Below, in pieces: positions 2,099 through 32,916 of a stretch of DNA of 64,000 nucleotides (position 1 is its first letter; each line of letters starts with the position of its first letter). Origin of the DNA: Pontibacter aquaedesilientis (lineage in GTDB: Bacteria > Bacteroidota > Bacteroidia > Cytophagales > Hymenobacteraceae). The stretch covers positions 1 to 64,000 of the forward strand of contig NZ_JACXAJ010000011.1 of assembly GCF_014773225.1 (NCBI RefSeq), read 5' to 3'. Position numbers and translations under genes: made by a program. The notes beneath the pieces were generated by a model. The model was not told where the DNA came from, searched no databases, and saw only the letters and a program-made list of their open reading frames with translations.

Positions 2099-2942
2099 CC
2101 AGCTTCGACAAAGCCCGGAGACCGCGCAGATGCTGGAAGCATTGGAGCGGGGGCTCCACCGCTTTAACGTGGACTTTTATTTGGTCGGTGCGGTCGCAAG
2201 GGATGTGTGGATGAGGGCTATCCACGATATTACCCCCAGACGAACCACTGGTGACATCGATTTCGCTGTACTGATCAACAGGGCAGGCGTGTATGAGGAC
2301 CTAAAAGATTACCTAGTAGAAAAAGAGGGCTTTCGCCCCTATCATGCCAACTCTTTCGTACTCCTTTGGCATAATGGCCAAGAAGTTGACCTGCTGCCCT
2401 TCGGCAGTATAGAACAGGACGGCAAGGTACGAGTGGAGGGCACCGGGCTGACCACCCTGCATGTGACTGGTTTCAAGGAAGTCTATGAGGCAGGCCTACC
2501 TGAGCTTGAGCTGGAAGACAACCAAAGGTTCAAGTTCTGCACCATACCGGGTATTGTGCTGCTGAAGCTGATCGCTTGGGACGATCGCCCGGAAGTAAGG
2601 TCAAGTGACATCCAAGATCTAACAGATATCCTGCTCAACTACTTTGATATGTTCAGCGAGCATATCTTTGAGTCTCACAACGATTTGTTTGAAGAGCGGG
2701 AGGAGGAGAATTTCCTGCTAAAGGTAGCTTCACAGGCGCTGGGGCGTGAAGTTGGCAGGATAGCCGGCAGAAGTGAAACCCTCATGGAAAGAATAAAACG
2801 AATCATGCTGGATAATACAAAAAGTGCTGCCACAAGCCGTATTGCGGCCATCATGGCAAGAACGCTCGACTGTACCGTTGAGGAGAGCGTAGATTTGCTA
2901 CGCCGGATACAACGGGGAATAGAAAATCCTATATCCTATTAA
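2073..2942 (+). CDS. abiEii: type IV TA toxin, AbiEii/AbiGii nucleotidyltransferase
   Basis: A 289-residue nucleotidyltransferase of the AbiEii/AbiGii toxin family. The catalytic signature is visible as LVGAVARD near residues 37-44, GDIDF with D61 and D63, and a third acidic residue D106 in EVDLLPFG, so the active site appears intact. Family toxins transfer nucleotides to tRNA or other targets and cause growth arrest or abortive infection. ATG 2073 is preferred because it gives a normal N-terminus and translational coupling inside the antitoxin gene. An upstream in-frame ATG at 2034 would add 13 residues. A terminator follows 47 bp after the stop. Confidence 0.85.
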   Translation: MSSYKTSYSQLRQSPETAQMLEALERGLHRFNVDFYLVGAVARDVWMRAIHDITPRRTTGDIDFAVLINRAGVYEDLKDYLVEKEGFRPYHANSFVLLWHNGQEVDLLPFGSIEQDGKVRVEGTGLTTLHVTGFKEVYEAGLPELELEDNQRFKFCTIPGIVLLKLIAWDDRPEVRSSDIQDLTDILLNYFDMFSEHIFESHNDLFEEREEENFLLKVASQALGREVGRIAGRSETLMERIKRIMLDNTKSAATSRIAAIMARTLDCTVEESVDLLRRIQRGIENPISY

Positions 2943-2988
2943 CTCCCTCAGAGAGATGACGTCCATTTCTCTCCCAAGTTCAAGAAGT

Positions 2989-3019
2989 AAAAAGGCTCCT
3001 GTATAGCAGGAGCCTTTTT
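2989..3019 (+). terminator. rho-independent terminator after abiE
   Basis: A perfect 10-bp stem AAGGCTCCTG / CAGGAGCCTT with a 5-base loop (3002-3006), preceded by A-rich and followed by T-rich sequence. It would end the abiE transcript. The A/T symmetry means it could also stop transcription from the opposite strand. Confidence 0.85.
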
Positions 3020-3120
3020 ATTACAGAAGATTTTACTTATTGATTTGAACAAACTAAAAAGTTAAGAGCAATAACATCATTTTTTTCTTTCAGATCATTT
3101 GAAAAGAACAACTGCCATTT

Positions 3121-7447: not shown

Positions 7448-7803
7448 ACAACGTGTTGAAGGAAAGCTGGGATACCGGCAGAATAGAATTTGTAGAGCAG
7501 TTCAAGGTACTCCTTTTCAACCGCCCCAACCGGGTGCTGGGCATATACGAAGTCTCCACTGGGGGCGTGGCCGGAACGGTAGCCGATCCCAAGCTTATCT
7601 TTGCAGCTGCTCTCAAAGCCTGCGCCTCCGGCATCATCCTCACACACAACCACCCCTCAGGTAACCTTAAGCCTAGTTCAGCGGACCTGTAGCTGACAAA
7701 AAAAATGAAACGAGGCGGGGAACTTCTGGACATCGCCTTTTTAGATCATATCATCCTGACCAGTGAAAGTTACTACTTGTTGGGAGCCGAGGGGCTCCTG
7801 TAG
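7448..7803 (+). pseudogene. radC: RadC/JAB-domain protein fragment with amber codon
   Basis: The frame reads VLKESWDTGRIEFVEQF, then VLGIYEVSTGG, then HNHPSGNLKPS, which is the JAMM metalloprotease-like core of RadC family proteins. TAG at 7690-7692 interrupts it, yet the same frame continues with recognisable C-terminal sequence (LDIAFLDHIIL, then YYLLGAEGLL) to the natural stop at 7801-7803. The N-terminal UPF0758/HhH part is missing, and the 5' side is fused to the integrase scrap. RadC-like genes are frequent passengers of Bacteroidota mobile elements. Confidence 0.8.
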
Positions 7804-7865
7804 CCCCTTTTATGGTCATCTTATCTAAGTCGACCCAACTATCAACAAAGTAAATTTTCGTGCAA

Positions 7866-7948
7866 TTCGAATCCCCCAACGGCTACGAGAAAGCCTCTCA
7901 GTTATTTTTAAAAGGTTTTCCCATACACTTTGGACACTATTCGGACAC
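7866..7948 (+). other. att-site remnant: tRNA-3'-like end plus arm-type repeats
   Basis: TTCGAATCCCCC at 7866-7877 has the form of a T-loop plus the 3' strand of a T-stem and is followed by acceptor-like sequence. The 5' strand of the stem is absent, as expected for the tRNA 3' fragment left at one end of an integrated element. Directly downstream are two copies of a 9-mer, TTTGGACAC (7929-7937) and TTCGGACAC (7940-7948), 11 bp apart, like integrase arm sites. No integrase follows. The reading is tentative. Confidence 0.35.
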
Positions 7949-8095
7949 CAAAGCTACCTCTCACCTACTGCTACTGAGGGGCAGGAACCCCCTGCTGGTA
8001 GTGACGCTTAGGAACAGGCCGCACAGGCAGGTTCACTACCCCAACTATTTTCACTGACTTGCCAATCATAAAATTTAGCGACACGCCTCGTAGTC

Positions 8096-8732
8096 TTAAT
8101 CATCATATTTCCGAATTTGAAAGGCGTCTCGGCCTATTGCAATGCCATGGGCAGCCATAAAAGGTGACATCATCACCAGCAGTTTGCGCGCCCCCAGCCG
8201 CTTCTGAGAGCGACGGATTCGCAGTGCCTCCTGCACCAGCAAGTCCTCTTGCAGCGCTTGCTGCTGCCTTGTTTTGATATGTTGGTAATACGCCTGTACT
8301 GTAACCAAACAAGCGGCAAAGCACTCCAACTACTTGGAAGGGCGTTCTTTGCTCCACTCTCAGGATTGATTGGTACCAGACTTTTTTAAGATGGGAGTGC
8401 CGAGCTCCTCCACGGCTATCTTGATCACTTCCAAAAGCACCTCCTTTTCAAGCCTTACCTTACGCAGCTCGGCCTAGAGTTCCTTCACGTCAGTGGGAAG
8501 GGGGGGCATCTCTTTGCAAATCCGCAGAGAGCTTGACGCTCTTGAATTTTGGTGGACTCTTCATCTGGCCTTGGTGTTTGAGAACCCAACGGCGGATCTG
8601 GTAAAAGTTGATGCCGTGTTTCTCCCTAAGTCTACTGTAACTCAGCCCGCCCAGGAGGTACTCGGCTACAATACGTTCTCTTAATTTTCTTTCCTGCATT
8701 TTTGTCGACTTTGTGTCAACCTATTCAGGACA
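8096..8732 (-). pseudogene. degenerate IS3-family transposase remnant
   Basis: On the minus strand the orfA part (8490-8699) shows an HTH transposase pattern (RIVAEYLLGGLSYSRLREKHG). An in-frame TAG at 8474-8476 interrupts it. The orfB part is recognisable in two different frames (LCRLFGYS, then AYYQHIKTRQQQALQEDLL and RSQKRLGARKLL), so it carries at least one frameshift. It ends near IAIGRDAF before any of the DDE catalytic residues. An IS-end-like sequence, TCCTGAATAGGTTGAC read inward, lies at 8716-8731. The element is dead and truncated. Confidence 0.8.
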
Positions 8733-18540: not shown

Positions 18541-18828
18541 ATGTCTGAAGGTACTATAACCTTTGCCAAGATTATAGTAATAAGCTTAGCCTTATTGATG
18601 AAGTAAGAGAAAGATAATTAAGATTGGTACTTTACCCTAAGTTTTAATCCATAGAAACTGAATCAATGCAGAAGGTACAGTTCGGATTGTTCTTAAACAT
18701 CAACAAGGGCTAATGTAAGAGACAACTCAGTACATCTCGTTGGAGATAAGCTTAATAATTAACTACTCATATATTTAATATTCCTAATATTAAAGCTTAA
18801 TTTGTATATAATACTATACTGTAAAGCT
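18541..18828. promoter_or_regulatory. divergent intergenic region with AT-rich palindrome
   Basis: This region must hold the promoters of the divergent KAP and RT-nitrilase genes. TTAATATT (18775-18782) and AATATTAA (18786-18793) form a perfect 8-bp inverted repeat with a 3-bp spacer, 36 bp before the RT start codon. An imperfect pair of AAGCTTAATA-like and TATTAAAGCTT blocks surrounds it. It is a candidate operator; no regulator gene lies next to it. Confidence 0.45.
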
Positions 18829-21800
18829 ATGGCAGACAAACCCCAGATCTTACTTCACCGCATCTCTAAAGTAGAAGAGGAAATATTTACGGCCTACAGA
18901 AAGTTTAAATCTCTGATCTACAATGAGAACTACTCATTACCTATTCGTCTGCAATTAGCTGGATACGAATCTGCAGATATCGATAATAAGCTGAACGCTC
19001 TTGCTAAGCAAATATTATTACGGGACGACAAATACTTTGAGCAGTTAATTGGGGAGATTAAGTTCATAGCATACCCTAAACAACTCCAGGGTGAGACACC
19101 GGCCAACTTCAAGGGCGTATTCTTTACAAACCAAAGGAGTAGTGGTAGCTATGAGTGCTCCCGCCTGACATGCTTCATCGACTGCCCTATCGAGATTCAT
19201 CTACTCTCTGTTCTGTGGGTAATGCGCATAGGACACGTACTGGATGGTGAGCTGTCAGATGCATGTTATGCAAACAGACTGCATCGTAACATGGACAATG
19301 ATATTTATAATAAGGGCATTAAGCTGTTCAAAAAATACCATGAGAGATACACCGATTGGAGGAACAACACGATCCAGAAAGCTAAGCGTATGCACACAGA
19401 GGGGATGGATACCGCGATTCTGAACCTCGATATAAAGGACTTTTATCATTCTGTTGACTTTGACCTAAATGAGGAGATTCAGGTAAAGAAGCGATCGGAT
19501 AAATGGCTGAACCATCAATTGTCAAAAATACATGCTGCCTATCTGAAAGTCTTGATAGATGCTAATGTTTTGGGAAATGATAGAAAAATATTGCCGATAG
19601 GCTTAGTTTCCTCTAGTATTCTTGCAAATTACTACTTCAAAGATTTTGATACACAGGTAGAAGAACTTGTAAATCCACTATTCTATGGGCGTTACGTGGA
19701 TGATATTATGCTTGTGTTTAAGTCTCCGGCTAATATCACAAAAGAGGCTGATCCTGTTGCATCATTCATTGACAGGTGTATTGCCAAGCCTTTAGAAAGA
19801 AGTGATGTATTGCAGCTAAGAAGAGAGGAAAAAACAGCTAATGAAGGGGAACAAAACACATCAATTGATTATGATTTCAAGATAGATTATAAGGGTAATA
19901 CACTTATCTTCCAGCAATCGAAGGTAAAACTGTTTAATTTCCTGAAAGATGAACCTATAAGCCTTCTAGAGGAATTTGAGGAAAACATCAGGAAGAACAG
20001 CAGTGAGTTTAGATTGTTGCCAGAGGAAGACAGCTTGATAGATTCTTTTGATAAGGCATCATCACACATAAGTTACTCTGATTCCATAAATAAGGTGCGT
20101 TCGATCGAAGGCTTCAGGTATGATAAGCTTCAGGCATCCAGGCACCTCTCTTTGCTCATAAGTGCCTCTAAAAACACGCAAGCCCTTGAAGGCGGAAAGA
20201 TTGAGCAGGTTTGTAAGAACCTTGAGGATTTCTTTAAAGGGTTGAATAGTATCGAACTTAACGGTATGTGGGAGAAGATCTTTGCTTTCTACATAATCAA
20301 CAAGAGGTATGATAAGGTAATTGCTTTTACAAAATATTTGCTGGATGAAATTGTAAAGGTTAAGTATTCCACTTCAAGACTAAACTATGCTAATAATGAT
20401 GACGATATAACAGAGTGGTTAAGGGTTGATTTGATCCAGCAACTGTTCAACAGCCTGTCAATGGCTGCCACGCTGAATCTTTCTGCTTTTGAAAGTAAAG
20501 TTATAGAGCATTTGCACAAGGATTTCAAGGAGCATACAGGCTTTGCTGCTGGCACTCTTAAAGATCATCTGGAGGCAATTAAACAGAACGCTGAGCAGCT
20601 AATCCATTCCAATTTGCTTAGGCATAATTATATATCATTTCCTCTACTTAACTATTGTGTTTTTAATAGGCCTAAAGTTGATAAGGTTGATCGGCTAAAC
20701 TATATTGACAACAATAGTATTAAGGGTAAGACACTAAAGCTTGCTACAGAGGATAATTTGAAAATCAGGTATTCACCCCGATTTATTCATTTTCATGAAG
20801 TATGCTTGTTCTATGCACTCGCCAAACACTATGGCACAGCAGAGGATAAAAGCGGAGCAGCATTAAATGTAGAATACCTCCTGCTAAATCATACTACTCA
20901 GGATGAACTTGAAGGCTTTCCTGACTCCCCTGCTAATGCTCCAGAACTGCCAGCTGACCCGGACGTTATACAGAACGAATTCAACGAAGACCATTATAGC
21001 CTAATTATAGACAAGTTTTTAGCGGAATATCCTACCTACTTCTCAAATGACCCTAAGCACAGTAAGGATGATAACAAGCTGAATAATGCCGACTTTAAAC
21101 TTATAAAACTTGGGAACAGACCAGGTAAGAAGAAAGTAAAGGTTGCAATGGCGAACATGAAAGTTGATGCCAAGAACTCAATACGCTCCTTCCTTGGCAC
21201 CCCTAACTTAAGCTTCGACAGGTATTTAGATCTTTGTCACATGCTTAACGAAGCTGCTCGAACAAAGTGTGACATTGTGGTCTTTCCTGAGATATCGATT
21301 CCTTTCGCATGGCTTGGAAACATAACGGACTATGTAAGGCGGAACAATATCGCCCTTATCTGTGGTGTGGAGCATGTAGCAGATCTTGATGGGGTTGTGT
21401 ACAACTATGTGGTAACAATACTTCCGTTTAAGCATAAAGTATACAGGAATGCATTCGTTGACTTACGCCTGAAGCGGGACTATTCTCATTCTGAAGAAAA
21501 GCTAATCAATGGGCACGTTGGATTTTCAGTTCCCCCGAGTATAGATAGAAATAAGCACAAACTTAGAGTTTATGACTGGAACGGGCTTATGTTTAGTGTC
21601 TTCAATTGTTTTGAGTTTGCAGATATCACGAAGAGAGCTACCCTCAAAGGAAACGTGGACTTTGTAATTGCGGTTGAACACAACAGGGACACGAACTACT
21701 TCTCCAACATTTTAGAGTCCTCCTCCAGGGATATTCACGCTTATGTTATCCAAGTAAACGACTCATCCTGGGGAGACAGCAGAATCTCACAGCCCTCTGC

Positions 21801-21984
21801 TACTGCCACAAAGGATCTTGTAAGAATTAAGGGAGGTGAGCACGTTCAAATCGTTACCGGAGAAATTGATATTGAAGGACTGCGTGAGTTTCAAATGAAG
21901 AACTTTTCGCTTCAGGAAGACTCTAAAACCTTTAAATCAACTCCTCCAGGGTTCAAAGTTCACGATAATAGAAAGCTTTGGTAA
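18829..21984 (+). CDS. reverse transcriptase-nitrilase fusion, DRT type 1 (UG1)-like
   Basis: A 1051-residue protein with an N-terminal RT domain: motif A LDIKDFY with D201, a motif B-like IGLVSSSILANYYF near residue 256, and the YVDD box with D291/D292. A long helical middle region follows. A C-terminal carbon-nitrogen hydrolase (nitrilase) domain starts near residue 765, with the expected triad E821 (VVFPEIS), K882 (LRLKRDY) and C927 (FNCFEF). RT-nitrilase fusions are the hallmark of defence-associated RT type 1 (UG1); a related nitrilase-bearing RT group is possible. Both active sites look intact. ATG 18829 is chosen because the TTG at 18802 adds nine residues inside a promoter-like AT-rich tract. 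The next gene starts 44 bp downstream, so the two form an operon. Confidence 0.85.
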   Translation: MADKPQILLHRISKVEEEIFTAYRKFKSLIYNENYSLPIRLQLAGYESADIDNKLNALAKQILLRDDKYFEQLIGEIKFIAYPKQLQGETPANFKGVFFTNQRSSGSYECSRLTCFIDCPIEIHLLSVLWVMRIGHVLDGELSDACYANRLHRNMDNDIYNKGIKLFKKYHERYTDWRNNTIQKAKRMHTEGMDTAILNLDIKDFYHSVDFDLNEEIQVKKRSDKWLNHQLSKIHAAYLKVLIDANVLGNDRKILPIGLVSSSILANYYFKDFDTQVEELVNPLFYGRYVDDIMLVFKSPANITKEADPVASFIDRCIAKPLERSDVLQLRREEKTANEGEQNTSIDYDFKIDYKGNTLIFQQSKVKLFNFLKDEPISLLEEFEENIRKNSSEFRLLPEEDSLIDSFDKASSHISYSDSINKVRSIEGFRYDKLQASRHLSLLISASKNTQALEGGKIEQVCKNLEDFFKGLNSIELNGMWEKIFAFYIINKRYDKVIAFTKYLLDEIVKVKYSTSRLNYANNDDDITEWLRVDLIQQLFNSLSMAATLNLSAFESKVIEHLHKDFKEHTGFAAGTLKDHLEAIKQNAEQLIHSNLLRHNYISFPLLNYCVFNRPKVDKVDRLNYIDNNSIKGKTLKLATEDNLKIRYSPRFIHFHEVCLFYALAKHYGTAEDKSGAALNVEYLLLNHTTQDELEGFPDSPANAPELPADPDVIQNEFNEDHYSLIIDKFLAEYPTYFSNDPKHSKDDNKLNNADFKLIKLGNRPGKKKVKVAMANMKVDAKNSIRSFLGTPNLSFDRYLDLCHMLNEAARTKCDIVVFPEISIPFAWLGNITDYVRRNNIALICGVEHVADLDGVVYNYVVTILPFKHKVYRNAFVDLRLKRDYSHSEEKLINGHVGFSVPPSIDRNKHKLRVYDWNGLMFSVFNCFEFADITKRATLKGNVDFVIAVEHNRDTNYFSNILESSSRDIHAYVIQVNDSSWGDSRISQPSATATKDLVRIKGGEHVQIVTGEIDIEGLREFQMKNFSLQEDSKTFKSTPPGFKVHDNRKLW

Positions 21985-22028
21985 AAGGCTCTTTGCGAAG
22001 AAGTAAATGAATTAAAGGCACAGTCGAT

Positions 22029-24119
22029 ATGTTTAAACAGCTAGCCGTTGTAAATGGGGATAATGTAAACCGGTATGGCTACCGGTTTACTATTGGAGCA
22101 TTAGAAGATAGTATGTTCCAAAAATCTTTAACAGGGGTTCCCTCTCTATTAGGTCATGATAGCCACAAACCAATTGGCTGGAATTTTCCTCTAGGATTAT
22201 ACTTTGAGCCCCATTCGACAAGACTGGTTGCATTATATTTGCTTACTGATACTGATGAAGATCAAGAATATATTAATAGAGTCTATCAAAATGAATTGAT
22301 TAGAAGAAACCAGGAGCTTTGTAAACCATTTTTAGATGAGTTCTCGAAGCTGTTGTCCCCTTATACTAACGATACTGGTCATTACATTTATTGCGGTTGT
22401 GTTTCCTATCATGAAAAAGGAATACTTTACAGGCTTTATCCTGAACTACATACCCTCAAGGACAAAGACGGCCTAGTATACTTAGATCAGCTCCTTGAGA
22501 GCTTTGAATATTTAGGTCAGGGTATTTTCAAGTGTAAGAAGAGTGAGATTGCAATCTTTTGTCATTCTTTTTTCCGAAGAAACCTCTCTCGTCACAACAA
22601 CTTCCATTACCATTTTTTGGACCAGTTTATCCGGCTCAATGATACCCCAGATATAACTTTAAGAGTAGCCCTGGATGATGACCTAATAGGTTATTCCAGT
22701 ACCTTTAATGAGCAAATTGAACTTGAATATTGGTGGGGTCCCAAATACAATGACAATATTGACGAAATTCCTTTAGGTGTGACTCATTACGAATGCGATA
22801 AAGGTCAACGGACTTTTTCCGGTGTTTCCGGAACACAATTCTGGTGGAAGGGTGATGAGGAAAGTATGATTCTTGAGCTTGAAGAGCTTAAAGATAACCC
22901 TACCCTAGGAGTAAGCGCGGAGATGTATGGATGTAGATACATTCACTCGATATATCTAAAAGATACATTTTACTTTGATCATTTTGATGGAGCAGTTAGA
23001 ATGTATGAGGAAGACCAAATGCTTCAACGTCTTGAACAGCCAATCAACAAGGCGGGTAAAAATACGGATTACACCAAGCTGTTCAGAATAGATGGTAAAC
23101 TAAGTATATCAACCTGGAAATCTTTAACTACTCATTATTTCCAAGATAATCCATTGCTATATGAGTATTTTGGTCATAAGGAGGAATATCGAAAATTGAG
23201 AGAAAATTTTGATATTCCTCTTCAAACAAAGGGTGTAGTAGAATCTTTAGTCCCTTATAAACTTAAGCGAGAAGAAGGCATAAGGTTGTTTGTTTCATAT
23301 CATAAACCCTCCCCTGTAACTTTAGATTTTGAAAGGACAATAATTAACCCTGATACTATCACCAGCAAAAACGGTAAGATAGATATTATTGAGTTTGATG
23401 CACTAGAAGTGAAAAAGGCGTTGAATAGATTAGGAGAAGATCTGACAATTCCAGATGGGTTGGCATTGATCAAATGCCATGACGCTTACATTAATTATCC
23501 CACAATTTTACACTCTCCAAATAACGTAGAAGAGAACTTGGGATTAACCCTTCAGGCATACTACTTACTATTAAAATCTATTTGTAAAAGGGCTGATAAG
23601 TATGTTTCTTTCACGCTTGCATGGCCATTCGAAGACAAGGAAGCAAAGCTATCAATATACGGTCATGTAGCAGAGATCGTGGAATGGTTAAAAGTAAATC
23701 AGCATATACCCTTAAAGCATAGCGATTTCCGAGTATGGCTTGAGAATCAGAACAAATGGCTCTCAGGTAGATACTCCTGTCAGTCAAACAAGCCGGATCT
23801 TTTCGAATTAGTAAATGGCGATGGGGTTATTTATGTTAAGAGAAGAAGCATCAATCCTGACTGGGTCCAAGACATTACAAATGATGAAAATGGATTAAAA
23901 TACAAACTTGAAATACCGGAAGATAATAGAGACCTACTTGAGGCAATACAGAAAAATGATATTCACCTTGCCTTTTCTACTATAGTTTCGAAAGCGCGAT
24001 GCGGTAAAACTAGTGGGGATTATTTTACCAGCACCACATCAAAATACCTTGATAATGATGTCTACGTAGTGCTTGAAGAATGTTCCTTAGCTGGAGCGTT
24101 TTGGACAGACAAACCTTAA
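22029..24119 (+). CDS. unknown 696-residue partner of the RT-nitrilase
   Basis: I do not recognise a full-length family. The N-terminal about 70 residues (NRYGYRFTIGALED, then PSLLGHDSHKPIGW) resemble the opening of HK97-type prohead proteases (peptidase S78/U35), which pair an NR-G-...-GAF segment with a HD..KPIG histidine motif. A later LGVSAEMYG near residue 298 could correspond to the serine region, but a large insertion would separate the two. The rest is AT-rich coding sequence without visible motifs. It is transcribed with the RT gene (44-bp gap). The first codons contain a perfect 26-base hairpin. It may be a sensor, effector or accessory of the RT system. Confidence 0.55.
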   Translation: MFKQLAVVNGDNVNRYGYRFTIGALEDSMFQKSLTGVPSLLGHDSHKPIGWNFPLGLYFEPHSTRLVALYLLTDTDEDQEYINRVYQNELIRRNQELCKPFLDEFSKLLSPYTNDTGHYIYCGCVSYHEKGILYRLYPELHTLKDKDGLVYLDQLLESFEYLGQGIFKCKKSEIAIFCHSFFRRNLSRHNNFHYHFLDQFIRLNDTPDITLRVALDDDLIGYSSTFNEQIELEYWWGPKYNDNIDEIPLGVTHYECDKGQRTFSGVSGTQFWWKGDEESMILELEELKDNPTLGVSAEMYGCRYIHSIYLKDTFYFDHFDGAVRMYEEDQMLQRLEQPINKAGKNTDYTKLFRIDGKLSISTWKSLTTHYFQDNPLLYEYFGHKEEYRKLRENFDIPLQTKGVVESLVPYKLKREEGIRLFVSYHKPSPVTLDFERTIINPDTITSKNGKIDIIEFDALEVKKALNRLGEDLTIPDGLALIKCHDAYINYPTILHSPNNVEENLGLTLQAYYLLLKSICKRADKYVSFTLAWPFEDKEAKLSIYGHVAEIVEWLKVNQHIPLKHSDFRVWLENQNKWLSGRYSCQSNKPDLFELVNGDGVIYVKRRSINPDWVQDITNDENGLKYKLEIPEDNRDLLEAIQKNDIHLAFSTIVSKARCGKTSGDYFTSTTSKYLDNDVYVVLEECSLAGAFWTDKP
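22065..22090 (+). repeat. perfect 11-bp hairpin at the start of the 696-residue gene
   Basis: GTAAACCGGTA (22065-22075) and TACCGGTTTAC (22080-22090) are exact reverse complements around a 4-base loop. The hairpin begins 36 bases into the coding region. In RNA it would be stable and close to the ribosome binding region; in DNA it is a 26-bp near-palindrome. Confidence 0.85.
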
Positions 24120-24358
24120 ATTGCTAAAATAGGGTGCTAGCCTTACAGCTTGAGGATATAAGCTTCTCCTACAACGCCGTCAAAACTTCACTTTATAACA
24201 AAACAAGATAATTACATTTTTGAAATCATTGGGGAAGTTATCTACCGCTAACGTGTCTCATAAGGAAATAGCCTTAACGAGCAAAACAAGGTAATCAAAG
24301 TGCAAGTATATGTATAAAATGATGTACTTTTATTTCAAAAAGTTTGTAAAAACAAATC

Positions 24359-24622
24359 TTACTGCTTTTTATTCAATCTAAACTTTTCTACTAAAGAAAG
24401 CCCCTTTTCATTCTCCCATGAGGTTGGCTCAATTAACCTTCTAATATCAATTCGTAAAGCTTTAGCTATATGGTATAAATCCTGAAGTTTTGGCTGATGC
24501 ACATTCCTACACCACCTGGATACAGTATCTTTTGATACACCGATCAACTCAGCAAGATCCTTTTGATCCAAATCAAATTCATCTAAAACGATACTGATTC
24601 TATTAAATCTTATTTTTTTCAT
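24359..24622 (-). CDS. XRE-family HTH regulator
   Basis: An 87-residue protein with a single Cro/CI-type helix-turn-helix (DLDQKDLAELIGVSKDTVSR at about residues 17-36, followed by PKLQDLYHIAKALRIDIRRLI). It is probably a DNA-binding repressor of itself or of neighbouring accessory genes. It faces the RT operon, and its upstream region carries a tandem 21-bp repeat that is a good operator candidate. No toxin gene is adjacent. Confidence 0.85.
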   Translation of the reverse strand: MKKIRFNRISIVLDEFDLDQKDLAELIGVSKDTVSRWCRNVHQPKLQDLYHIAKALRIDIRRLIEPTSWENEKGLSLVEKFRLNKKQ

Positions 24623-24681
24623 GCTTCTGTATACCTAGAAGCAAATATAATTATCTATAACAATTTGAAAATCAATACTAT

Positions 24682-24723
24682 ATAGACATTGAATGTATAT
24701 AAATAGACACTTAATGTATATTA
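24682..24723. promoter_or_regulatory. tandem 21-bp direct repeat upstream of the XRE gene
   Basis: Two head-to-tail copies start at 24682 and 24703, each reading ATAGACA, then T/C, T, G/T, AATGTATAT, T/A-rich. Only about four positions differ. They lie 60-100 bp upstream of the XRE start codon, where an autoregulatory operator would be expected. Confidence 0.6.
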
Positions 24724-24861
24724 ATATTGTTTGTTTGTCTATTATTTATTACATTTGAGTAAGTATTAAATATTTACGTTTAGTTAGCTATTACAAGACG
24801 ACTATTGTATAAATAAAGATTGTAACTGCATTACATATCTAATAAGGTGTGCATTGCTTAC

Positions 24862-25030
24862 GAAGCCTCGCCGCGAAATCTGGTAAATTTCAACTCCGCG
24901 AGTGTAAGTGAAGCGCCTAAACTCTATATTTGTGATATAGGGCTGGCGCTCGCTTATGTTTTTGTGGAGAACTATTCAATAGAATAGTGGGCTTTACCAG
25001 AGCCTCGCGACAAAGACAGGCGGGTGTCCA
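24862..25030. ncRNA. candidate structured RNA or folded DNA element
   Basis: No ORF is supported, but nested complementary segments define a compact fold. The closing stem is CGCGA (24872-24876) and CTGGTAAA (24880-24887) with TTTACCAG (24993-25000) and TCGCG (25005-25009). An inner arm pairs GTAAGTGA plus GCGCC (24904-24917) with GGCGC plus TCGCTTAT (24945-24957), and is capped by CTATAT / ATATAG (24924-24929 / 24935-24940). A hairpin ACTATTC-AATA-GAATAGT occupies 24971-24988. The strand cannot be decided. The options are a regulatory or RT-related RNA, or a cassette-like folded DNA site. It matches no RNA family I can recall. Confidence 0.5.
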
Positions 25031-25386
25031 GCCTTTTATATTTCTGGTACTTTCCCTAATGGCTTCGGTTGATAAACTAATTATAGATTTCAACGATGGA
25101 AGCGAACCTATTCTTAATTTCCTGCCGCACTAATCAAACACTACTAATAGTGAAATGGTACTACTTTGGTTCATGCTTTCTATTTCAAGTGCTGTCATTA
25201 CTTTTCAACCTAGACTGGATCCTCCTCATCTCACCCCCTGAGTGAGTTGCCTCTTCCCCTACCGCTCCATTTAACACAGACTGTAGCTACTAGTCAGGAG
25301 CGGTCGTCCCATTTTACACTATACCTTCAGCAGCTCTTTTCCGGAAGCAGCAAGGGAAACTTTTGTCCATTAACCAAGCTAAACCC
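25031..25386. other. intergenic region, nothing recognised
   Basis: No gene, repeat or terminator could be supported between the folded element and the small gene at 25387. The promoter of the downstream nutrient-uptake genes may lie here. Confidence 0.5.
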
Positions 25387-25686
25387 ATGGAAACAACAAA
25401 GGCAAAAACGATTACTTGCACCACCCCGCAATGTATCATTCAGCACTTCTGCCAGTCCTATACCTTCGAGGAGGTGCAGGAAGCACTGTGGCACAGCCAG
25501 CACCCCCATCTTTTGGCTACATTTAACGAACTCGACCCGCTGCATACAGACAAACTCACGGTCTTCTATGAAAACATTGAAATTCTTCTTTCGGCTGTAT
25601 ACCAGCTACCTGACCTGCCGCCCCCACGGCAGGAAGAGGAAGCTACCATGACCCTTTACTTTGCAAGAGACCAGCGCCATGTGTAA
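25387..25686 (+). CDS. small hypothetical protein upstream of tlpA
   Basis: A 99-residue acidic, soluble protein without a signal peptide or recognised domain (FEEVQEALWHSQHPHLLATF near residues 28-47). ATG 25387 is preferred over 25363 because it gives a conventional METTKAK start. It precedes TlpA, SusC and SusD in the same direction (136-bp gap), so it could belong to their regulon; its role is unknown. Confidence 0.6.
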   Translation: METTKAKTITCTTPQCIIQHFCQSYTFEEVQEALWHSQHPHLLATFNELDPLHTDKLTVFYENIEILLSAVYQLPDLPPPRQEEEATMTLYFARDQRHV

Positions 25687-25822
25687 ACACGCCACCTACA
25701 GCTGGGCGCTACTGATCTGCCCACCCGAGTGAGTGGAAGCTAACACCCCACCGCCGATAGGGCTGCATTGCAAAGTTTTTTGCAAGCGGCCATTCCTTTG
25801 TTTTATCTAAATTTTCACCTGT

Positions 25823-27190
25823 ATGAAACCATCTAAATGGCTTCCCGGGCTCCTCATGCCCATTTTGTTCTTACTATTTATCCTGCTGTTGCAGTTATTA
25901 CCAGGCTTCCTTATTCAGATGGCGCGCGCCCAGTCCGTCCCTGCTACGGGCCAAAGCCTGGCTGTCGGGCAGCCCGTGCCAGACGTGCACCTGGAAGAGC
26001 TCATAAACTACTCGGCACCAACAGCCAGGCTCTCAGACTTCAAAGGCAAATTGCTCATCCTGGACTTCTGGGCCACCTGGTGCGGAACCTGCAAGGCCGC
26101 CATGCCCAAGCTCGATGCCATCCAGCGTGAGTTCGAAGGCCAGGTGCAGGTGCTGCTGGTTAACTCAGGTTCCAACAAGGACACCGAAGAAAAGGTAAAG
26201 GCATACTTCGAGCGCTGGCGCCACCCTGACGGAAGATGCTACGCCCTGCCCTCCGTAGTGAACGACACTATACTGGGCAACCTCTTCCCGCACCGCCTCA
26301 TCCCGCACGTGGCCTGGATTGGCCCCGACGGCACGCTGCTGGCTACTACCGGCACCGACCAGGTAACCCCGGAGAACGTGCGCCAGATGCTGGCTAGGGA
26401 GCGGCCGGCGCTGCCCCAGAAAAAAGATATCGACGTTTCGCGCCCCCTCTTCACGATGGAGGAGCTACCCGCCGGGAACATGCTTCGTTACAGCATTCTG
26501 CTGAAAGGGAAAGTAAGCGGCCTGCCCAGTGGCAACCGCATCCGCCAGCAGGGGGATACTGTGAACGGTGCCGCACTAACCAACACGCCCCTGCTCACGA
26601 TGTACCGTATCGTGCAGCGGGCACTGTACCCGGAGCTTGGGGCGAAAGGCCTGCGCGTGGAAGTAAGTGACAGCGCGGCCCTTTATCCTGAGCTATCTCC
26701 CCTCTCCGATACAGACTGGAAGGCAAGACACTTTTACTCTTATGACCTGGTCGTGCCTTCGCACCAGGCTGACAGCCTGTTCCACTACATGCTGGGCGAC
26801 CTGAACACCTTCTCCGGTTACTACGCTACGCTGGAGCAGCGGCGCATGGATTGCCTGGTGCTCGTGCGAAAAGGCAAAGCGCTGCCTGCCTCACAGGGCG
26901 GTGCTCCTACTAACCAGCTTTTCCGGGAGAAGCAGCCCTTCCTGCGCAATATGCCCCTCTCGGCGCTGGTCAGCCGCCTCAACAATCATAGCGGTATCAC
27001 ATTGCAAGTTGTAGACGGTACCGGTTACAACGGACTGGTGGACATCGAATTATCAGAGGGCGTTGGAGACTTGCCTGCCCTCAGGCGAGAGCTGCAGCGA
27101 CAGGGACTGGACCTGCGGCAGGCACGACGCAGAGTGCCCGTGTTTGTGATCCGAGAGAAGCCTGGCGTACCACAGCAAGCTAAAAGATAA
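25823..27190 (+). CDS. TlpA-family thiol-disulfide oxidoreductase with C-terminal extension
   Basis: A 455-residue exported protein with an N-terminal signal/anchor (hydrophobic residues about 8-33) and a TlpA/thioredoxin domain at about residues 50-195. The active site is WCGTC (C87, C90) after ILDFWAT, so redox activity is likely in the periplasm. The C-terminal about 250 residues form an extension with beta-rich repeats (LVSRLNNHSGITLQVVDGTG, LPALRRELQRQGLDL) reminiscent of DUF3738-type or STN-like domains. TlpA proteins with such extensions are commonly encoded beside SusC/SusD pairs in Bacteroidota, as here, and may reduce or load the substrate. Confidence 0.85.
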   Translation: MKPSKWLPGLLMPILFLLFILLLQLLPGFLIQMARAQSVPATGQSLAVGQPVPDVHLEELINYSAPTARLSDFKGKLLILDFWATWCGTCKAAMPKLDAIQREFEGQVQVLLVNSGSNKDTEEKVKAYFERWRHPDGRCYALPSVVNDTILGNLFPHRLIPHVAWIGPDGTLLATTGTDQVTPENVRQMLARERPALPQKKDIDVSRPLFTMEELPAGNMLRYSILLKGKVSGLPSGNRIRQQGDTVNGAALTNTPLLTMYRIVQRALYPELGAKGLRVEVSDSAALYPELSPLSDTDWKARHFYSYDLVVPSHQADSLFHYMLGDLNTFSGYYATLEQRRMDCLVLVRKGKALPASQGGAPTNQLFREKQPFLRNMPLSALVSRLNNHSGITLQVVDGTGYNGLVDIELSEGVGDLPALRRELQRQGLDLRQARRRVPVFVIREKPGVPQQAKR

Positions 27191-27386: not shown

Positions 27387-30300
27387 ATGAAAAGTACCTT
27401 ACTCTTTCTTTCCCTGCTGCTCCTACCCCTCTGGGGGCTGGCCCAGCAGGCTGTGCGGGGCAGGATTCTCTCCGCTGCCGACCAGTCGCCCCTGCCTGGG
27501 GCCACCGTGCTGGTGAAAGGCACCGAACAGGGCACCACGGCCGATGCAGACGGCTACTTTACCCTGCAGGCGGTACCGGCCGGAGCTACACTGCAGGCGC
27601 ACTTCCTGGGCTATACGCCTCGTGAAGAAGCACTGCCTGCTCCCCTGCCGCAATTGCTGGTTATTTCCCTTACCGAGCAGACGAGCCAGTTAGGAGAAGT
27701 AGTGGTATCCACCGGGTACCAGGACCTGCCGCAGGAACGCGCCACCGGCTCCTTTGCCCATGTTAGTAGCGAACAGCTCCAGCAGCAGGTAGGCACCGAC
27801 GTTCTCAGCCGTCTGGAGGCAGTTGCCAGCGGTCTTACGGTGGACCGGGGCACGAGTTCCCAAGGCCAGTTCCTGGTGCGTGGCCTGAGTACTATCCAGG
27901 GGCCACGCGAGCCGCTCATCGTGGTGGACAATTTCCCCTACGAGGGAGACCTGCGCAATATCAACCCGAATGACGTGGAAAGCGTCACCATCCTCAAGGA
28001 TGCGGCAGCGGCCTCCATCTGGGGTGCCCGCGCTGGCAACGGCGTTATTGTGATTACCACCCGAAAAGGTCGCTTCAATCAGCCTCTGCGCGCCGAGTTT
28101 AACACCAACGTCACGTTCACTGGAAAACCGAATCTATTCTCACTCCCGCAACTCTCTAGCTCCGACTATATCGACTTGGAGCGGTCTCTCTTTGAGAAGG
28201 GGCACTACAACAGCCAGATCAACTCCGCGAGCCGGCCGGCACTTACGCCCGCCGTGGAGATCCTGTTGGCCCAACGCAACGGCACCCTCACTGAAGAGGA
28301 GGCACAAACCCAGCTCAATGCCCTGCGTTCCCGTGACGTACGCAAGGATTACCTGCAACACATGTATCGCACCTCTGTGAATCAGCAATACAGCTTGGGC
28401 CTGCAGGGCGGCACAGACGCACATGCCTGGCGCCTGTCAGGCGGCTATGATCGCAACCTGAGCGTACTGGACGCAGGCTACAAGCGCCTGAACCTGGCCA
28501 TGCAGCACACGCTACGCCCCCTCAAGAACCTGGAACTGACCAGTGGGCTGCGCTACACCCAGAGCCAGAGTACCAGCGGGCGCCCCGCCTACGGAGACAT
28601 CACCTCCCAGTCAGGCAACCTCTACCCTTATGCCCGTTTTGCTGATGACAACGGCAATCCGCTGCCGCTGCCCCGGGACTACCGCCAATCATGGAAGGAG
28701 ACGGCCGGTGATGGCAGGCTGTTGGACTGGAACTATTACCCACTCACAGAGCACCTGCACAACCGCAGCGTGGACTACCTGCATGACCTGGTCGGCCACG
28801 GTAGCCTGCGTTATACCTTACCTTTCGGTCTGGAAGCCAGCCTACGCTACCAGTACCAGCGCCAGCAGGCCCGGGGTGAGCGCCTGCAGGACCCGGAAAG
28901 CTATGGCGCCCGCAGCATCGTGAACCGCTATACCCAAATTAACCCCACCACCGGCGCTTTGACTTTCATTGTACCCCGGGGCGGCATCCTGGACCTGTCT
29001 GATGACCTGGTGGAAGCGCATAACGCACGTGGCCAGTTTAACTTCGATAAAACCATTGGGGAGCACACCATTGTGGCCCTGGCCGGCGGGGAGGTACGTG
29101 ACACCCGCGCCACAGGCAATAGCAACCGTCGCTACGGCTACAACCCGGACCTGCTCACCTTTGGGCAGGTGGACTATGTGAACCTTTACCCCTCCATCGT
29201 CAACGGCTCGCTCTCAAATATCCCCGACAACAGCGGCCAGTACGCAAGACTTACGCGATTCGTGTCGATGTTCGGGAATGCAGCCTATACCTACAAACAA
29301 CGCTATACACTTACAGGCAGCGCCCGCCAGGATGCCTCCAACCTGTTTGGCGTAAAAGCTAACGACCGCTGGAAACCGCTTTGGTCCGCTGGCATGGGTT
29401 GGGAGCTGTCACGGGAGCCATTCTTCCAGTTGGAACAGATGCCCTACCTCAAGCTGCGTGCTACCTATGGCTACAGCGGCAACGTGGACCAGCGCCTGGC
29501 CGCCGTTACAACCATTGCCTATCGCTTGGCCCTCTCGGCACAGACGCAGGCCCCCTGGGCCACTTTTGATAACTTTGCCAACCCCGAACTGCGATGGGAA
29601 ACGGCTCGCATGCTTAACCTGGGCTTGGACTTCCGGCTCCTCCGTGACGCGCTTTCCGGCAGCGTGGAGTACTACCGCAAAAAAGGCACTGACCTGTTCG
29701 GACGGGAATCGATCGACTACACCAGCGGCATCGGCTGGGAAACCGTGAAGAACGTGGCCAGCATGGAAGGCAGCGGGGTGGATGTGCGCCTGCAGGGCGT
29801 GCACTTGCGCCGGGGCGGCTTCCACTGGGAAAGCGACCTGAATTTTAACTACTATGCAGACAAGGTTACCGCCTACCACCTTTCAGAGCTGCGGGGAAGC
29901 CGCTTCATTAGCGGCGGCACCACCATATCAGGCGTTGAAGGTCGGCCGGTCTATGCCATTTTCTCCTATCCCTGGGCTGGCCTGAGCCCGCAGACAGGCG
30001 ACCCGCAGGGCTATCTGGAGGGGCAGGTGAGCACAGACTACACCGCCCTGCTCGGGCCGGACGTGCTTGTTTCAGATTTAGTTTATCACGGCTCTGCCCT
30101 ACCGACTTATTTCGGTTCGCTGGGCAGCACACTGACTTACAAACGCTTTTCCCTCACGGCCCGCCTGAGTTATAAATTAGGTTATTTCTTCCGCCGGGAG
30201 TCAGTCAATTACGGCAACCTTTATAGCACTGGGTTGGCCCATGCCGACTATGCGGCCCGCTGGCAGCAACCGGGGGACGAAGCAAGCACCTACGTACCCT

Positions 30301-30590
30301 CCCAGATTTACCCAGCCATCGGCAACCGCGACACGTTTTATGCCGGTTCAGGGGTACTCGTGGAGAGCGGAGACCATGTGCGGCTACAGTACCTGACGGC
30401 CAGCTACGAACTTTCTGCCACCGAAGGAAGCAAACTACCCTTTAGGCGGCTTCAGGTCTATGCCAACGCCCAGAACCTGGGCCTGTTATGGACAGCGAAT
30501 AAACTGGGCATTGACCCGGACTACAACCTGAGCCGTTATACCATTCCTCCTGCCCGCAGCTATGCCTTAGGCCTGAAGGCTTTCTTTTAA
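27387..30590 (+). CDS. SusC/RagA-family TonB-linked outer membrane transporter
   Basis: A 1067-residue TonB-dependent transporter. It has a signal peptide (residues 1-20), a carboxypeptidase-regulatory-like domain at about 22-98 (VRGRILSAADQSPLPGATV), a plug domain from about 105 (GEVVVSTGYQDLPQERATGS, VLSRLEAVASGL, VRGLSTIQGP, VTILKDAAAASIWGARAGNG), then a beta-barrel ending with the terminal aromatic strand GLKAFF. The length is typical of the family. It imports an unknown large substrate together with the SusD lipoprotein 17 bp downstream. No carbohydrate-active enzyme lies nearby, so the substrate cannot be inferred; TlpA linkage suggests a peptide or metal-peptide complex. Confidence 0.95.
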   Translation: MKSTLLFLSLLLLPLWGLAQQAVRGRILSAADQSPLPGATVLVKGTEQGTTADADGYFTLQAVPAGATLQAHFLGYTPREEALPAPLPQLLVISLTEQTSQLGEVVVSTGYQDLPQERATGSFAHVSSEQLQQQVGTDVLSRLEAVASGLTVDRGTSSQGQFLVRGLSTIQGPREPLIVVDNFPYEGDLRNINPNDVESVTILKDAAAASIWGARAGNGVIVITTRKGRFNQPLRAEFNTNVTFTGKPNLFSLPQLSSSDYIDLERSLFEKGHYNSQINSASRPALTPAVEILLAQRNGTLTEEEAQTQLNALRSRDVRKDYLQHMYRTSVNQQYSLGLQGGTDAHAWRLSGGYDRNLSVLDAGYKRLNLAMQHTLRPLKNLELTSGLRYTQSQSTSGRPAYGDITSQSGNLYPYARFADDNGNPLPLPRDYRQSWKETAGDGRLLDWNYYPLTEHLHNRSVDYLHDLVGHGSLRYTLPFGLEASLRYQYQRQQARGERLQDPESYGARSIVNRYTQINPTTGALTFIVPRGGILDLSDDLVEAHNARGQFNFDKTIGEHTIVALAGGEVRDTRATGNSNRRYGYNPDLLTFGQVDYVNLYPSIVNGSLSNIPDNSGQYARLTRFVSMFGNAAYTYKQRYTLTGSARQDASNLFGVKANDRWKPLWSAGMGWELSREPFFQLEQMPYLKLRATYGYSGNVDQRLAAVTTIAYRLALSAQTQAPWATFDNFANPELRWETARMLNLGLDFRLLRDALSGSVEYYRKKGTDLFGRESIDYTSGIGWETVKNVASMEGSGVDVRLQGVHLRRGGFHWESDLNFNYYADKVTAYHLSELRGSRFISGGTTISGVEGRPVYAIFSYPWAGLSPQTGDPQGYLEGQVSTDYTALLGPDVLVSDLVYHGSALPTYFGSLGSTLTYKRFSLTARLSYKLGYFFRRESVNYGNLYSTGLAHADYAARWQQPGDEASTYVPSQIYPAIGNRDTFYAGSGVLVESGDHVRLQYLTASYELSATEGSKLPFRRLQVYANAQNLGLLWTANKLGIDPDYNLSRYTIPPARSYALGLKAFF

Positions 30591-30607: not shown

Positions 30608-31978
30608 ATGAGTCAAAACATGAAACGCCAACTCAAACATATGCTGTGCTTGCTACTGCTGTTTGCCGCCACGGGCTGTGAGAGCTTTTTGGACGAGAAG
30701 CCGGATAATGCCCTGGTCGTGCCCGCCACGCTACAGGACCTGGAGGCCCTGCTCGATGACCACAGCGTGATAGCCAACAATTACCCCAGTATGGCAGAAA
30801 TAAGCGCCGATAATTATTACCTGACCGATGTCGATTGGGCCGGTCTGCCAGAGGAAGAGTACCGACGCGCCTACATCTGGGAGAAGGACCGTGTGTTCCT
30901 TCCGCGCCGCAACGACTGGTACTATGCGTATCGGTCTGTGTACTCGGCCAATACCGTACTGGAAACAGTTGAAAAGATTCATCGGACTCCGGCAGAGGCC
31001 GCACGATGGGACAATGTGAAAGGACAGGCGCTGTTTGTCAGGGGCTCGTCTTTCCTGCAGGCGGCCCTGCTCTGGGCACCGGTGTACCGGGAAGGCACTG
31101 CTGCAACAGATATGGGTATTCCGCTGCGCTTGGGTACTGACTTTAACGAACCCTCTGTGAGGGCAAGTGTCGAACAGTCTTTTCAGCGCATCATCCTAGA
31201 CCTGAAAGCGGCAGTACCGCTGCTGCCGGTCACCCCGGTGCACGTGATTCGCCCTTCCCGTTCCGCGGCTTACGGCCTGCTGGCACGCACTTACCTGTAC
31301 ATGGGCAACTACCCCCTGGCCGAGGTTTACGCTGACTCTGCCCTGCAACTAAACGCCACATTGATGAACTACAGCAGCCTAAACGCAGCGGCGTCTTTTC
31401 CCATTGCACGCTTCAACCCAGAGGTTGTTCAGCACAGCCTGCTCATGTCTCTGAACCCGAGCCTGGCCGTCAGCCGCGCCCGTATCGTACCAGAGCTTTA
31501 TGACAGCTATGCCGACGACGACCTGCGCAAAACAGTTTTCTTTCGCAACAACGGTGACGGCTCTTTTGCCTTCAAGGGAAGCTACAGCAACTCGGGTCTC
31601 TTCGGGGGTATCGCCACTGACGAGCTATACCTGACCCGGGCAGAGGCCAGGGCCCGGCAGGGAAAAGTCCCGGAGGCTCTTGACGATTTAAACGCGCTGC
31701 TGATCACCCGCTGGAAGGATGGCACCTTTGTACCCCTCACGGCCGGCGACCAAGCAGAGGCTTTGGAGATCGTTTTGCAGGAACGGCGCAAGGAGCTTGT
31801 CATGCGGGGCCTGCGGTGGATGGACCTTAAACGCTTCAACCGCGATGGGGCAGGTATTACAATCAACCGCACAATAAACGGCCAAGAGTATACCATGCCG
31901 CCCCACGACCCTCGCTATGCCCTGCCTATCCCCGAAGATGTGATAGAGCTTTCCGGAATGCAACAGAACCCGCGTTAG
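30608..31978 (+). CDS. SusD/RagB-family nutrient-binding lipoprotein
   Basis: A 456-residue surface lipoprotein with a lipobox LLFAATGC (C at about residue 24), followed by ESFLDEKPDNALVVPATLQD, the standard SusD start. TPR-like helices follow, and the C-terminus carries ELVMRGLRWMDLKRFNRDG and a YALPIPEDVIEL signature. It caps the SusC barrel and binds the substrate. ATG 30620 is an alternative start giving the same lipobox. It forms an operon with susC and is followed by a strong terminator. Confidence 0.95.
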   Translation: MSQNMKRQLKHMLCLLLLFAATGCESFLDEKPDNALVVPATLQDLEALLDDHSVIANNYPSMAEISADNYYLTDVDWAGLPEEEYRRAYIWEKDRVFLPRRNDWYYAYRSVYSANTVLETVEKIHRTPAEAARWDNVKGQALFVRGSSFLQAALLWAPVYREGTAATDMGIPLRLGTDFNEPSVRASVEQSFQRIILDLKAAVPLLPVTPVHVIRPSRSAAYGLLARTYLYMGNYPLAEVYADSALQLNATLMNYSSLNAAASFPIARFNPEVVQHSLLMSLNPSLAVSRARIVPELYDSYADDDLRKTVFFRNNGDGSFAFKGSYSNSGLFGGIATDELYLTRAEARARQGKVPEALDDLNALLITRWKDGTFVPLTAGDQAEALEIVLQERRKELVMRGLRWMDLKRFNRDGAGITINRTINGQEYTMPPHDPRYALPIPEDVIELSGMQQNPR

Positions 31979-32367: not shown

Positions 32368-32916
32368 AATGTAGAATGCTTTTGTAAATCAAAAAGCAAG
32401 CGAAAAACTTTGGTTTTACACATTTTGCTTGCCTACTCTATTTGCAGGTTTTCGGCTCCTCCTGCCCGGACATAAAAGTTCCTTGCCTCTCGCACCCGGC
32501 CTGTTTTTTTGCTCTCTTCCATTCACCTCCTTTCCGTTTGGTATAGTGCTAAGGTAGAGAGTCCTCCCATGAAACTTTCTGTTCCAGAACAGGGAAACAG
32601 GCTATTTTAAAACAACAAGAAGGATGTAAAATCGTAGCATGCAGGCTGCTGATCATTTTATAGGAAAGCCGGTAAATTGGCTTAGTTAAGCAGTTAAAGA
32701 GAGATAATGGCTTGGATCAGTATCCTAAGCCATGTATCTCATAACTACCCATTGACATCTTCCTACTCTTGATAAGTATAATTCCATACTTTTAGCCACT
32801 AATTTTTATTATCTGTCTTCTGAAGAATACAATGCTTCAGGTAATGAAACAGCTTTCTCAATTGCATTTCCATCTCCAAAAACCTATATTTACATATCTT
32901 TATACTACCTGAAAAC
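32368..32916. other. intergenic region before the restriction operon
   Basis: About 550 bp without a supported gene. It should contain the promoter of the hsdR operon and that of the small exported protein. No repeats or RNA genes were recognised. It marks the border between the nutrient-uptake cluster and the defence island. Confidence 0.6.

Follow-up and report, generated by a model that had tools for sequence, protein, structure and literature searches.

A conserved RNA element with two alternative folds, likely a regulatory leader, ahead of a thioredoxin-like/SusC/SusD uptake operon in Pontibacter and a second family

The window that we analyzed is the whole 64,000-nucleotide stretch at the start of contig NZ_JACXAJ010000011.1 of Pontibacter aquaedesilientis, which includes a low-GC region where defence and mobile genes are plentiful. 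At positions 24862-25030 it contains a strongly folded segment that a preliminary description, made from the sequence alone, had taken to be either a structured RNA or a folded, cassette-type recombination site. What is this element, and does it belong to the genes on its left, which include a reverse transcriptase, or to those on its right? We think it likely that the plus strand of the element encodes a structured regulatory leader RNA, placed before a thioredoxin-like/SusC/SusD uptake operon, and that this RNA can exist in two states.

The strong fold was confirmed. RNA of the plus strand at 24862-25030 folds with -71.3 kcal/mol, compared with -45.6 +/- 3.6 kcal/mol for 200 dinucleotide shuffles (z -7.1; reached by none of the 200), and in a scan of 160-nt windows across all 64 kb, the plus strand of 24861-25020 gave the best GC-corrected fold. 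The minus strand folds more weakly (-59.2 kcal/mol, z -5.8), and its GC-corrected fold at 24861-25020 ranks fourth in the same scan. As single-stranded DNA the element is less exceptional (z -3.9 and -3.3). G-U pairs of the plus strand account for 9 of the 55 pairs in the element fold. The closing stem, the long inner arm with a capped hairpin and the 7-bp hairpin noticed earlier are all present, the last at 24971-24988 (ACTATTC-AATA-GAATAGT). Elsewhere in the window, a further strong fold at 2861-3040 ranks with the best on both strands; it lies between two convergent genes whose ends are at 2942 and 3121. The features of the locus are as follows.

24359..24622, minus strand: divergent HTH (XRE) regulator gene, 87 aa (HTH_3, E 3.8e-11)
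24679..24720, plus strand: candidate operator, two 21-nt direct repeats (86% identical), the first containing the palindrome ACATTGAATGT at 24686-24696 (repeat search, letters checked)
24727..24757, plus strand: candidate promoter TTG-N20-TACATTTG directed at the element (pattern match; 51 of 1000 shuffles also have one)
24862..25030, plus strand: structured RNA element as a whole (fold scores, models, covariation)
24872..25009, plus strand: rod core (helix list; some letters checked)
24872-24876/25005-25009, plus strand: closing stem P1 (helix list)
24879-24887/24993-25001, plus strand: closing stem P2 (helix list)
24894-24969, plus strand: arm P3-P6 (helix list)
24971..24988, plus strand: side hairpin (helix list)
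24932..24955, plus strand: putative switching strand, the 3' side of the P6-P5-P4 arm, whose partner is either its own 5' side or 25018-25044
25018..25044, plus strand: downstream segment that competes for the arm strand in the alternative helix, with the core CCAGCC at 25028-25033 (duplex -30.9 kcal/mol, p 0.001)
25034..25043, plus strand: U-rich tract TTTTATATTT, in the window partly within the alternative duplex (sequence)
25028..25047, plus strand: possible weak third hairpin CCAG...CTGG, which would draw on the same competing segment (read by eye)
25189..25245, plus strand: possible 18-codon ORF with a GTG start, ending WILLISPPE-stop
25363..25686, plus strand: 107-aa protein of the uptake locus, without a Pfam match
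25823..27190, plus strand: thioredoxin-like (TlpA-type) protein (AhpC-TSA/Thioredoxin)
27387..30590, plus strand: SusC-like TonB-dependent receptor (CarbopepD_reg_2 and Plug)
30608..31978, plus strand: SusD-like protein (SusD-like_3, SusD_RagB)

The nearest genes on the left invite the reading that the element is an RNA component, template or cofactor, of a reverse transcriptase system. The reverse transcriptase at 18802-21984 matches RT_UG5-nitrilase (PADLOC, E 3.1e-252). Its 696-aa neighbour has no Pfam or PADLOC match at E 0.001, and a single distant relative (28% identity) was seen in one of 294 other genomes of the class. The RT operon (18802-24119) ends 743 nt from the element, in agreement with the distance of about 740 bp given before; the same account had called the interval gene-free, although the divergent HTH gene lies there on the opposite strand. 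Seven other genomes with a UG5 reverse transcriptase were found, and the element was absent from all six of the loci examined (8-13 kb each; G763 was left out), so we dropped the tie to these enzymes. Conversely, neither the RT nor its partner occurs in the seven element loci tested, which come from four genomes outside the second family described below, and a related-locus search with the RT in genome contigs found nothing. A link between element and RT operon is thus unsupported in the loci tested, their nearness looks accidental, and we regard an RT-associated RNA as highly improbable. The defence and mobile genes of the window (1-63966) comprise two tyrosine integrases (141-989 and 47182-48480), AbiEi, a relaxase, a Schlafen-like protein, a KAP NTPase, type I RM, an AbiJ-like protein and UvrD helicases. 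A DUF805b RNA (RF02914) lies at 32430-32465 on the minus strand (40.7 bits, above threshold).

Simple searches retrieved little. With the element as query, blastn gave nothing useful in its own genome, phages or plasmids, and three family matches of 23-25 nt were read as chance. Rfam had no match for the window element. Pattern scans of viral contigs gave 0 matches, and a related-locus search of viral contigs with the HTH protein found nothing. A single-sequence model run over 204 genomes of the family reported the window alone at E <= 0.1; three members of the genus that were located afterwards by position, and a fourth that a later model detected, escaped it, so negative genome counts are no proof of absence. 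Members were collected with three models: R1, from the window element alone; R2, from the elements of L080, L086 and L089; and R3, from a joint alignment of five elements.

In the genus, R1 matched at the equivalent place in 3 of 17 uptake loci (L080 in genome G149, L086 in G185 and L089 in G194), and neither R1 nor R3 matched in the other 14 of these TlpA/SusC-type loci. Another locus entry from G149, L045, has a strong fold at the equivalent place (z -8.5, best of 23 windows, 40 shuffles) together with an R1 match of 23.0 bits (E 0.0026 in 114,523 bases). R2 added L054 in G183 with 159 bits, which R1 did not detect, and matched 4 of 50 genus genomes in total. With default filters R2 did not detect the window element; with filters off it found it weakly (10.7 bits, E 1.4), in a search that gave 14 matches, the antisense and weak ones being disregarded. 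A degenerate pattern scan of genome contigs retrieved Pontibacter virosus, Pontibacter sp. FD36, P. amylolyticus and one unrelated record. A genome-contig match in a Lysobacterales MAG (L094) was dropped, as it had neither an R1 nor an R3 match.

Across 370 genomes of the order, R2 gave two matches at E <= 0.01, in G729 (L099/L101) and G1074 (L100/L102). Because this threshold may yield a few false matches over so many genomes, both were tested with R1, which was built without second-family sequences. R1 scored L102 at 45.0 bits (E 2.6e-9) and L101 at 28.0 bits (E 3.4e-5), and the two were retained because of this detection and because they have the same kind of gene context. Three elements that had not gone into R3 were detected with it: L054 (100 bits), which is closely related to the L080 and L089 rows of the model; L109 in G1139 (53.6 bits); and L111 in G729 (29.3 bits). 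Antisense echoes with R3 reach 32.1 bits (antisense of L102) and so exceed the score of L111, which was therefore accepted equally on its fold, divergent HTH gene and thioredoxin-like gene. G1139 also carries an element identical to that of L101 (L110), so that G729 and G1139 each have two diverged copies. Among the genomes around G1074, one of 12 has a match (G1074 itself), and around G729 two of 11 (G729 and G1139); the two sets have nine genomes in common.

In all, the family comprises ten loci in eight genomes, five of Pontibacter and three of the second family: the window; L080, L086, L089 and L054 of the same genus; L101 and L111 (G729); L110 and L109 (G1139); and L102 (G1074). Eight of the elements are distinct, since L080 equals L086 and L101 equals L110. 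The searches covered sampled genomes with strict filters and missed known members, so these counts may understate the spread.

Does the fold itself persist among these homologues? MAFFT misplaced the 3' arm when the window was aligned with the L080 group, and a model-based alignment was therefore used. In the resulting five-sequence alignment, 92.4% of 291 pair cells are paired. Double changes occur in 39 of 63 pairs, compared with 19.4 +/- 2.8 in shuffled controls (0 of 500) and 7-9 in slid controls; counted by cell, there are 66 double changes, compared with 23 +/- 3.6 when shuffled and 8-11 when slid. We note that this five-row alignment (A13) was fitted to the structure and is thus biased towards it. 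The L080 group can be aligned unambiguously by sequence: its three distinct rows keep 100% of cells paired over 46 pairs, four of which changed on both sides (reached by 8 of 500 shuffles), with slid controls at 34-51% paired. At the place of the side hairpin, L102, L101 and L109 have a hairpin of different letters, that of L102 resembling the window's, and the L080 group has none. A chance hairpin would be consistent with the lack of blastn homologues in the element's own genome and family, and it has next to no probability given the covariation and homologues in two families. The preliminary description had named homologues with compensatory changes as a check on a structured RNA, and this part of it is borne out.

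Conservation of the element was compared with that of its surroundings. In the comparison of L080 with L054, identity is 90% over the element, against 58% for the HTH gene, 51% for the promoter region, 53% for the spacer and 45% for the next gene; between L089 and L054 the values are 93% for the element and 39-54% for the other regions. In these distant pairs, because the element is kept while its flanks diverge, selection seems to act on the element itself. In the closer pair, L080 with L089, the 89% identity of the element does not exceed that of the spacer (93%) or of the next gene (89%), and the promoter region is 43% identical.

The same contrast with the flanks in the L054 pairs could be read as a sign of recent movement, that is, of an element acting as DNA: an attC-like folded recombination site, a transposon end or a repeat. 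Its position at the edge of the low-GC defence island, beside GC-rich core genes, and the paired, diverged copies in two second-family genomes would fit such an origin. We nevertheless judge it very unlikely. The element has no attC boxes, the longest word shared by its flanks is 5 nt, and it is single-copy in its own genome at the levels searched. In the loci found it is placed similarly with respect to an uptake operon and a divergent gene, its G-U pairs favour RNA of the plus strand, and its single-strand DNA fold is, as noted, less exceptional. The recombination-site half of the preliminary description thus found no support.

The gene context recurs: on one side of the RNA is a small gene that points away from it, usually of the HTH/XRE kind, and on the other a thioredoxin-like/SusC/SusD operon, mostly with a candidate Bacteroidota-type promoter ahead of the RNA. 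All 10 loci have such a divergent small ORF before the element. In 9 of them it is HTH-like, as judged by Pfam (in part with scores under the curated cut-off) or by resemblance to an HTH-like protein; the ORF in L109 has no Pfam match. A thioredoxin-like protein follows in all six loci scanned with Pfam (window, L080, L101, L102, L109 and L111), with its ORF starting about 0.6-1.6 kb downstream of the element. SusC-type domains were found in 3 of 3 loci scanned (window, L101 and L102) and SusD in 2 of 2 (window and L109). In the window, the GC-rich genes that start to the right of the element are those of the 107-aa, thioredoxin-like, SusC-like and SusD-like proteins. In L101 and L102 the divergent gene starts 118-144 nt from the element, the distance varying with the model, and genes for a thioredoxin-like protein and a SusC-like receptor follow; the divergent proteins of these two loci are 40% identical, and that of L101 has an HTH domain. 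The window HTH protein matched no divergent HTH protein of the same genus (BLAST, 1e-5) and is 18% identical to that of L099 when aligned. The regulators thus differ more than the RNA architecture.

A short peptide end is also found in these loci. The pattern W-x-LLI[SC]PPE-stop recurs before TlpA/SusC genes at 22 places in 17 of the 204 family genomes (reversed-pattern control, 0), including 25189-25245 and 25703-25732 in the window and in L051, L052, L053 and L077-L090. Its codon variation suggests a protein-coding stretch, perhaps encoding the C-terminus of a protein family of about 110 aa, or else an arrest or precursor peptide. An initial reading, in which loci with this peptide end were the sole hosts of the element, was abandoned after the second-family matches, and the host context was widened to the uptake operon. 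In G164, of the same genus, blastn shows a right side in common with the window from 25213, and the DNA on the left is different. In L101, a repetitive short ORF (MGCAVYLASPFMGCAGYGLSTAAQS...) occupies 7783-8100, between the RNA element and the thioredoxin-like gene. A different conserved rod lies at the equivalent place in L052 (7485-7570, plus strand) and L078 (2685-2775, minus strand), with z -2.5 and -5.2. These rods have a second pairing, GAGAACC/GGTTCTC, in pseudoknot order and adjoin other divergent genes, so regulator and leader may be exchanged as a module.

Upstream of the element we looked for promoter patterns, in which we take the TTG to be part of the promoter. The pattern TTG-N19-22-TAnnTTnG occurs between the HTH start and the element in all five of the first loci, two of which (L080 and L086) are near-identical, against 13-51 of 1000 shuffles per locus. 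With spacings of 18-23 and no shuffle control, it occurs in four of the five entries of the second set (L109, L110, L101 and L102, where L110 is near-identical to L101; not L111). The Bacteroidota-type -7 consensus is given as TAnnTTTG (PMC9723704).

The 3' strand of the P6-P5-P4 arm has a second possible partner a short way past the closing stem: 24932-24955 of the window can pair with 25018-25044. Against dinucleotide shuffles of the downstream 70 nt, the alternative duplex gave p 0.0005-0.0015 in all eight distinct elements, 0.0005 being the floor of the test, and the six least related elements combine to a Fisher p of 1.4e-13. We note that this test was devised after the pairing had been noticed. 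With the shorter P6-P5 strand alone, 0-42 of 1000 shuffles reach the duplex, L109 being weakest. Segments further downstream give weaker pairing (-7.6 to -18.8), except for one in the window (-24.6). The alternative pairing is thus well supported, and because the two pairings of one arm strand are mutually exclusive, the leader can exist in two states. In all eight elements the rod is the more stable of the two states, by 5.5-21 kcal/mol. Where the alternative helix ends there is a U-rich stretch resembling a terminator tract; its enrichment across loci is not significant (Fisher p 0.13-0.17), and a simple terminator scan of 24100-25900 gave no terminator-like site. Given these two results and the lower stability of the alternative state, termination as the outcome is a guess.

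The conserved fold and its covariation, the recurring context and the second partner are computed features, from which we infer transcription, control by the HTH protein, a signal and a switch outcome, as follows. Transcription would start at a promoter in the gap that separates the element from the divergent HTH gene, and would run through the element towards the uptake operon; the HTH protein would control this promoter, possibly by binding the adjoining repeats at 24679-24720. The nascent leader would fold into the long bulged rod P1-P6, its more stable state. A signal acting on the rod (a ligand, a protein or a ribosome) might then decide whether the downstream segment invades. If the 5' strand of the apical arm were occupied or opened, the downstream segment would capture the 3' strand, with early termination or another change in operon expression as the probable consequence.

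The same promoter and the same fold would be expected of a free-standing small RNA that is controlled by the divergent HTH protein and acts in trans. The distance of 0.6-1.6 kb to the thioredoxin-like ORF would suit such an RNA, as would L054, where the WxLLISPPE end just downstream is degenerate and the element is conserved. However, a co-directional uptake operon follows in the loci examined, the simple scan found no terminator-like site after the window element, and the alternative partner is positioned as in a switch, immediately outside the rod. We therefore consider a free small RNA unlikely, and favour the two-state leader.

A broader proposal is more tentative, and we lean somewhat against it: that the leader represents a new, widespread class of bistable RNA switches in Bacteroidota, of which the Pedo-repair RNA is one Pedobacter branch, with HTH gene and switch forming exchangeable modules before TlpA-SusC-SusD operons. 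Bacteroidota rely mainly on SusC/SusD systems for uptake, and accounts of how these are controlled deal mostly with sigma factors, sensors and antisense RNAs. If the proposal were true, SusCD systems would gain an RNA layer of control, and a conserved leader RNA that can fold in two exclusive ways, in exchangeable modules with a divergent HTH gene, would make this layer directly testable. The orphan Rfam motif Pedo-repair would then have possible relatives, as well as a gene context and a testable mechanism.

How does the element compare with known systems? In the literature on Pontibacter noncoding RNAs and riboswitches and on leaders of SusC, SusD, TlpA and TonB-receptor genes, with subscription journals mostly outside this coverage, we recognised no earlier description of such a leader. 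Integron attC sites resemble the element in being long imperfect hairpins with an extra arm. Their R boxes are RYYYAAC and GTTRRRY, neither of which occurs in 24840-25060 on either strand, and unlike attC sites the element is conserved as plus-strand RNA. For the noncoding RNA of a retron or DRT system an association with the reverse transcriptase is expected, and here it is not conserved, as the six UG5 loci show. For a transposon end or MITE one expects multiple copies or a target duplication, whereas the element is single-copy in its own genome with no shared flanking word longer than 5 nt. As a mode of action, riboswitches and attenuators have in common with the element an apparent leader position and mutually exclusive helices; the element matches no riboswitch family in Rfam.

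The nearest named RNA is Pedo-repair (RF01715), which is listed from Pedobacter only, with the entries 'RNA? y', 'cis-reg ?' and 'Switch n' (Weinberg et al. 2010, PMC2864571, the one paper in the searched library that carries the name). The RF01715 model did not match the window or the other six of the seven relatives scanned with cmscan. It aligned with L097 (Pontibacter virosus, the same element as L089) over positions 1-211 of 211 at 23.2 bits, far below its gathering score of 150 (E 0.0026 in 301 nt, 0.19 in 22 kb), and several pairs are broken in this end-to-end alignment. The printed consensus of Pedo-repair allows a similarly placed alternative helix (-19.1 kcal/mol), which is not significant (305 of 2000 shuffles reach it). 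By this alignment L097 and Pedo-repair appear to have in common the order of the closing stems, a GGAAA junction, a long arm with GCCC and a CUUU loop, and a further hairpin after the rod. The Pedo-repair RNA is probably a remote relative, a relationship that stops short of family membership.
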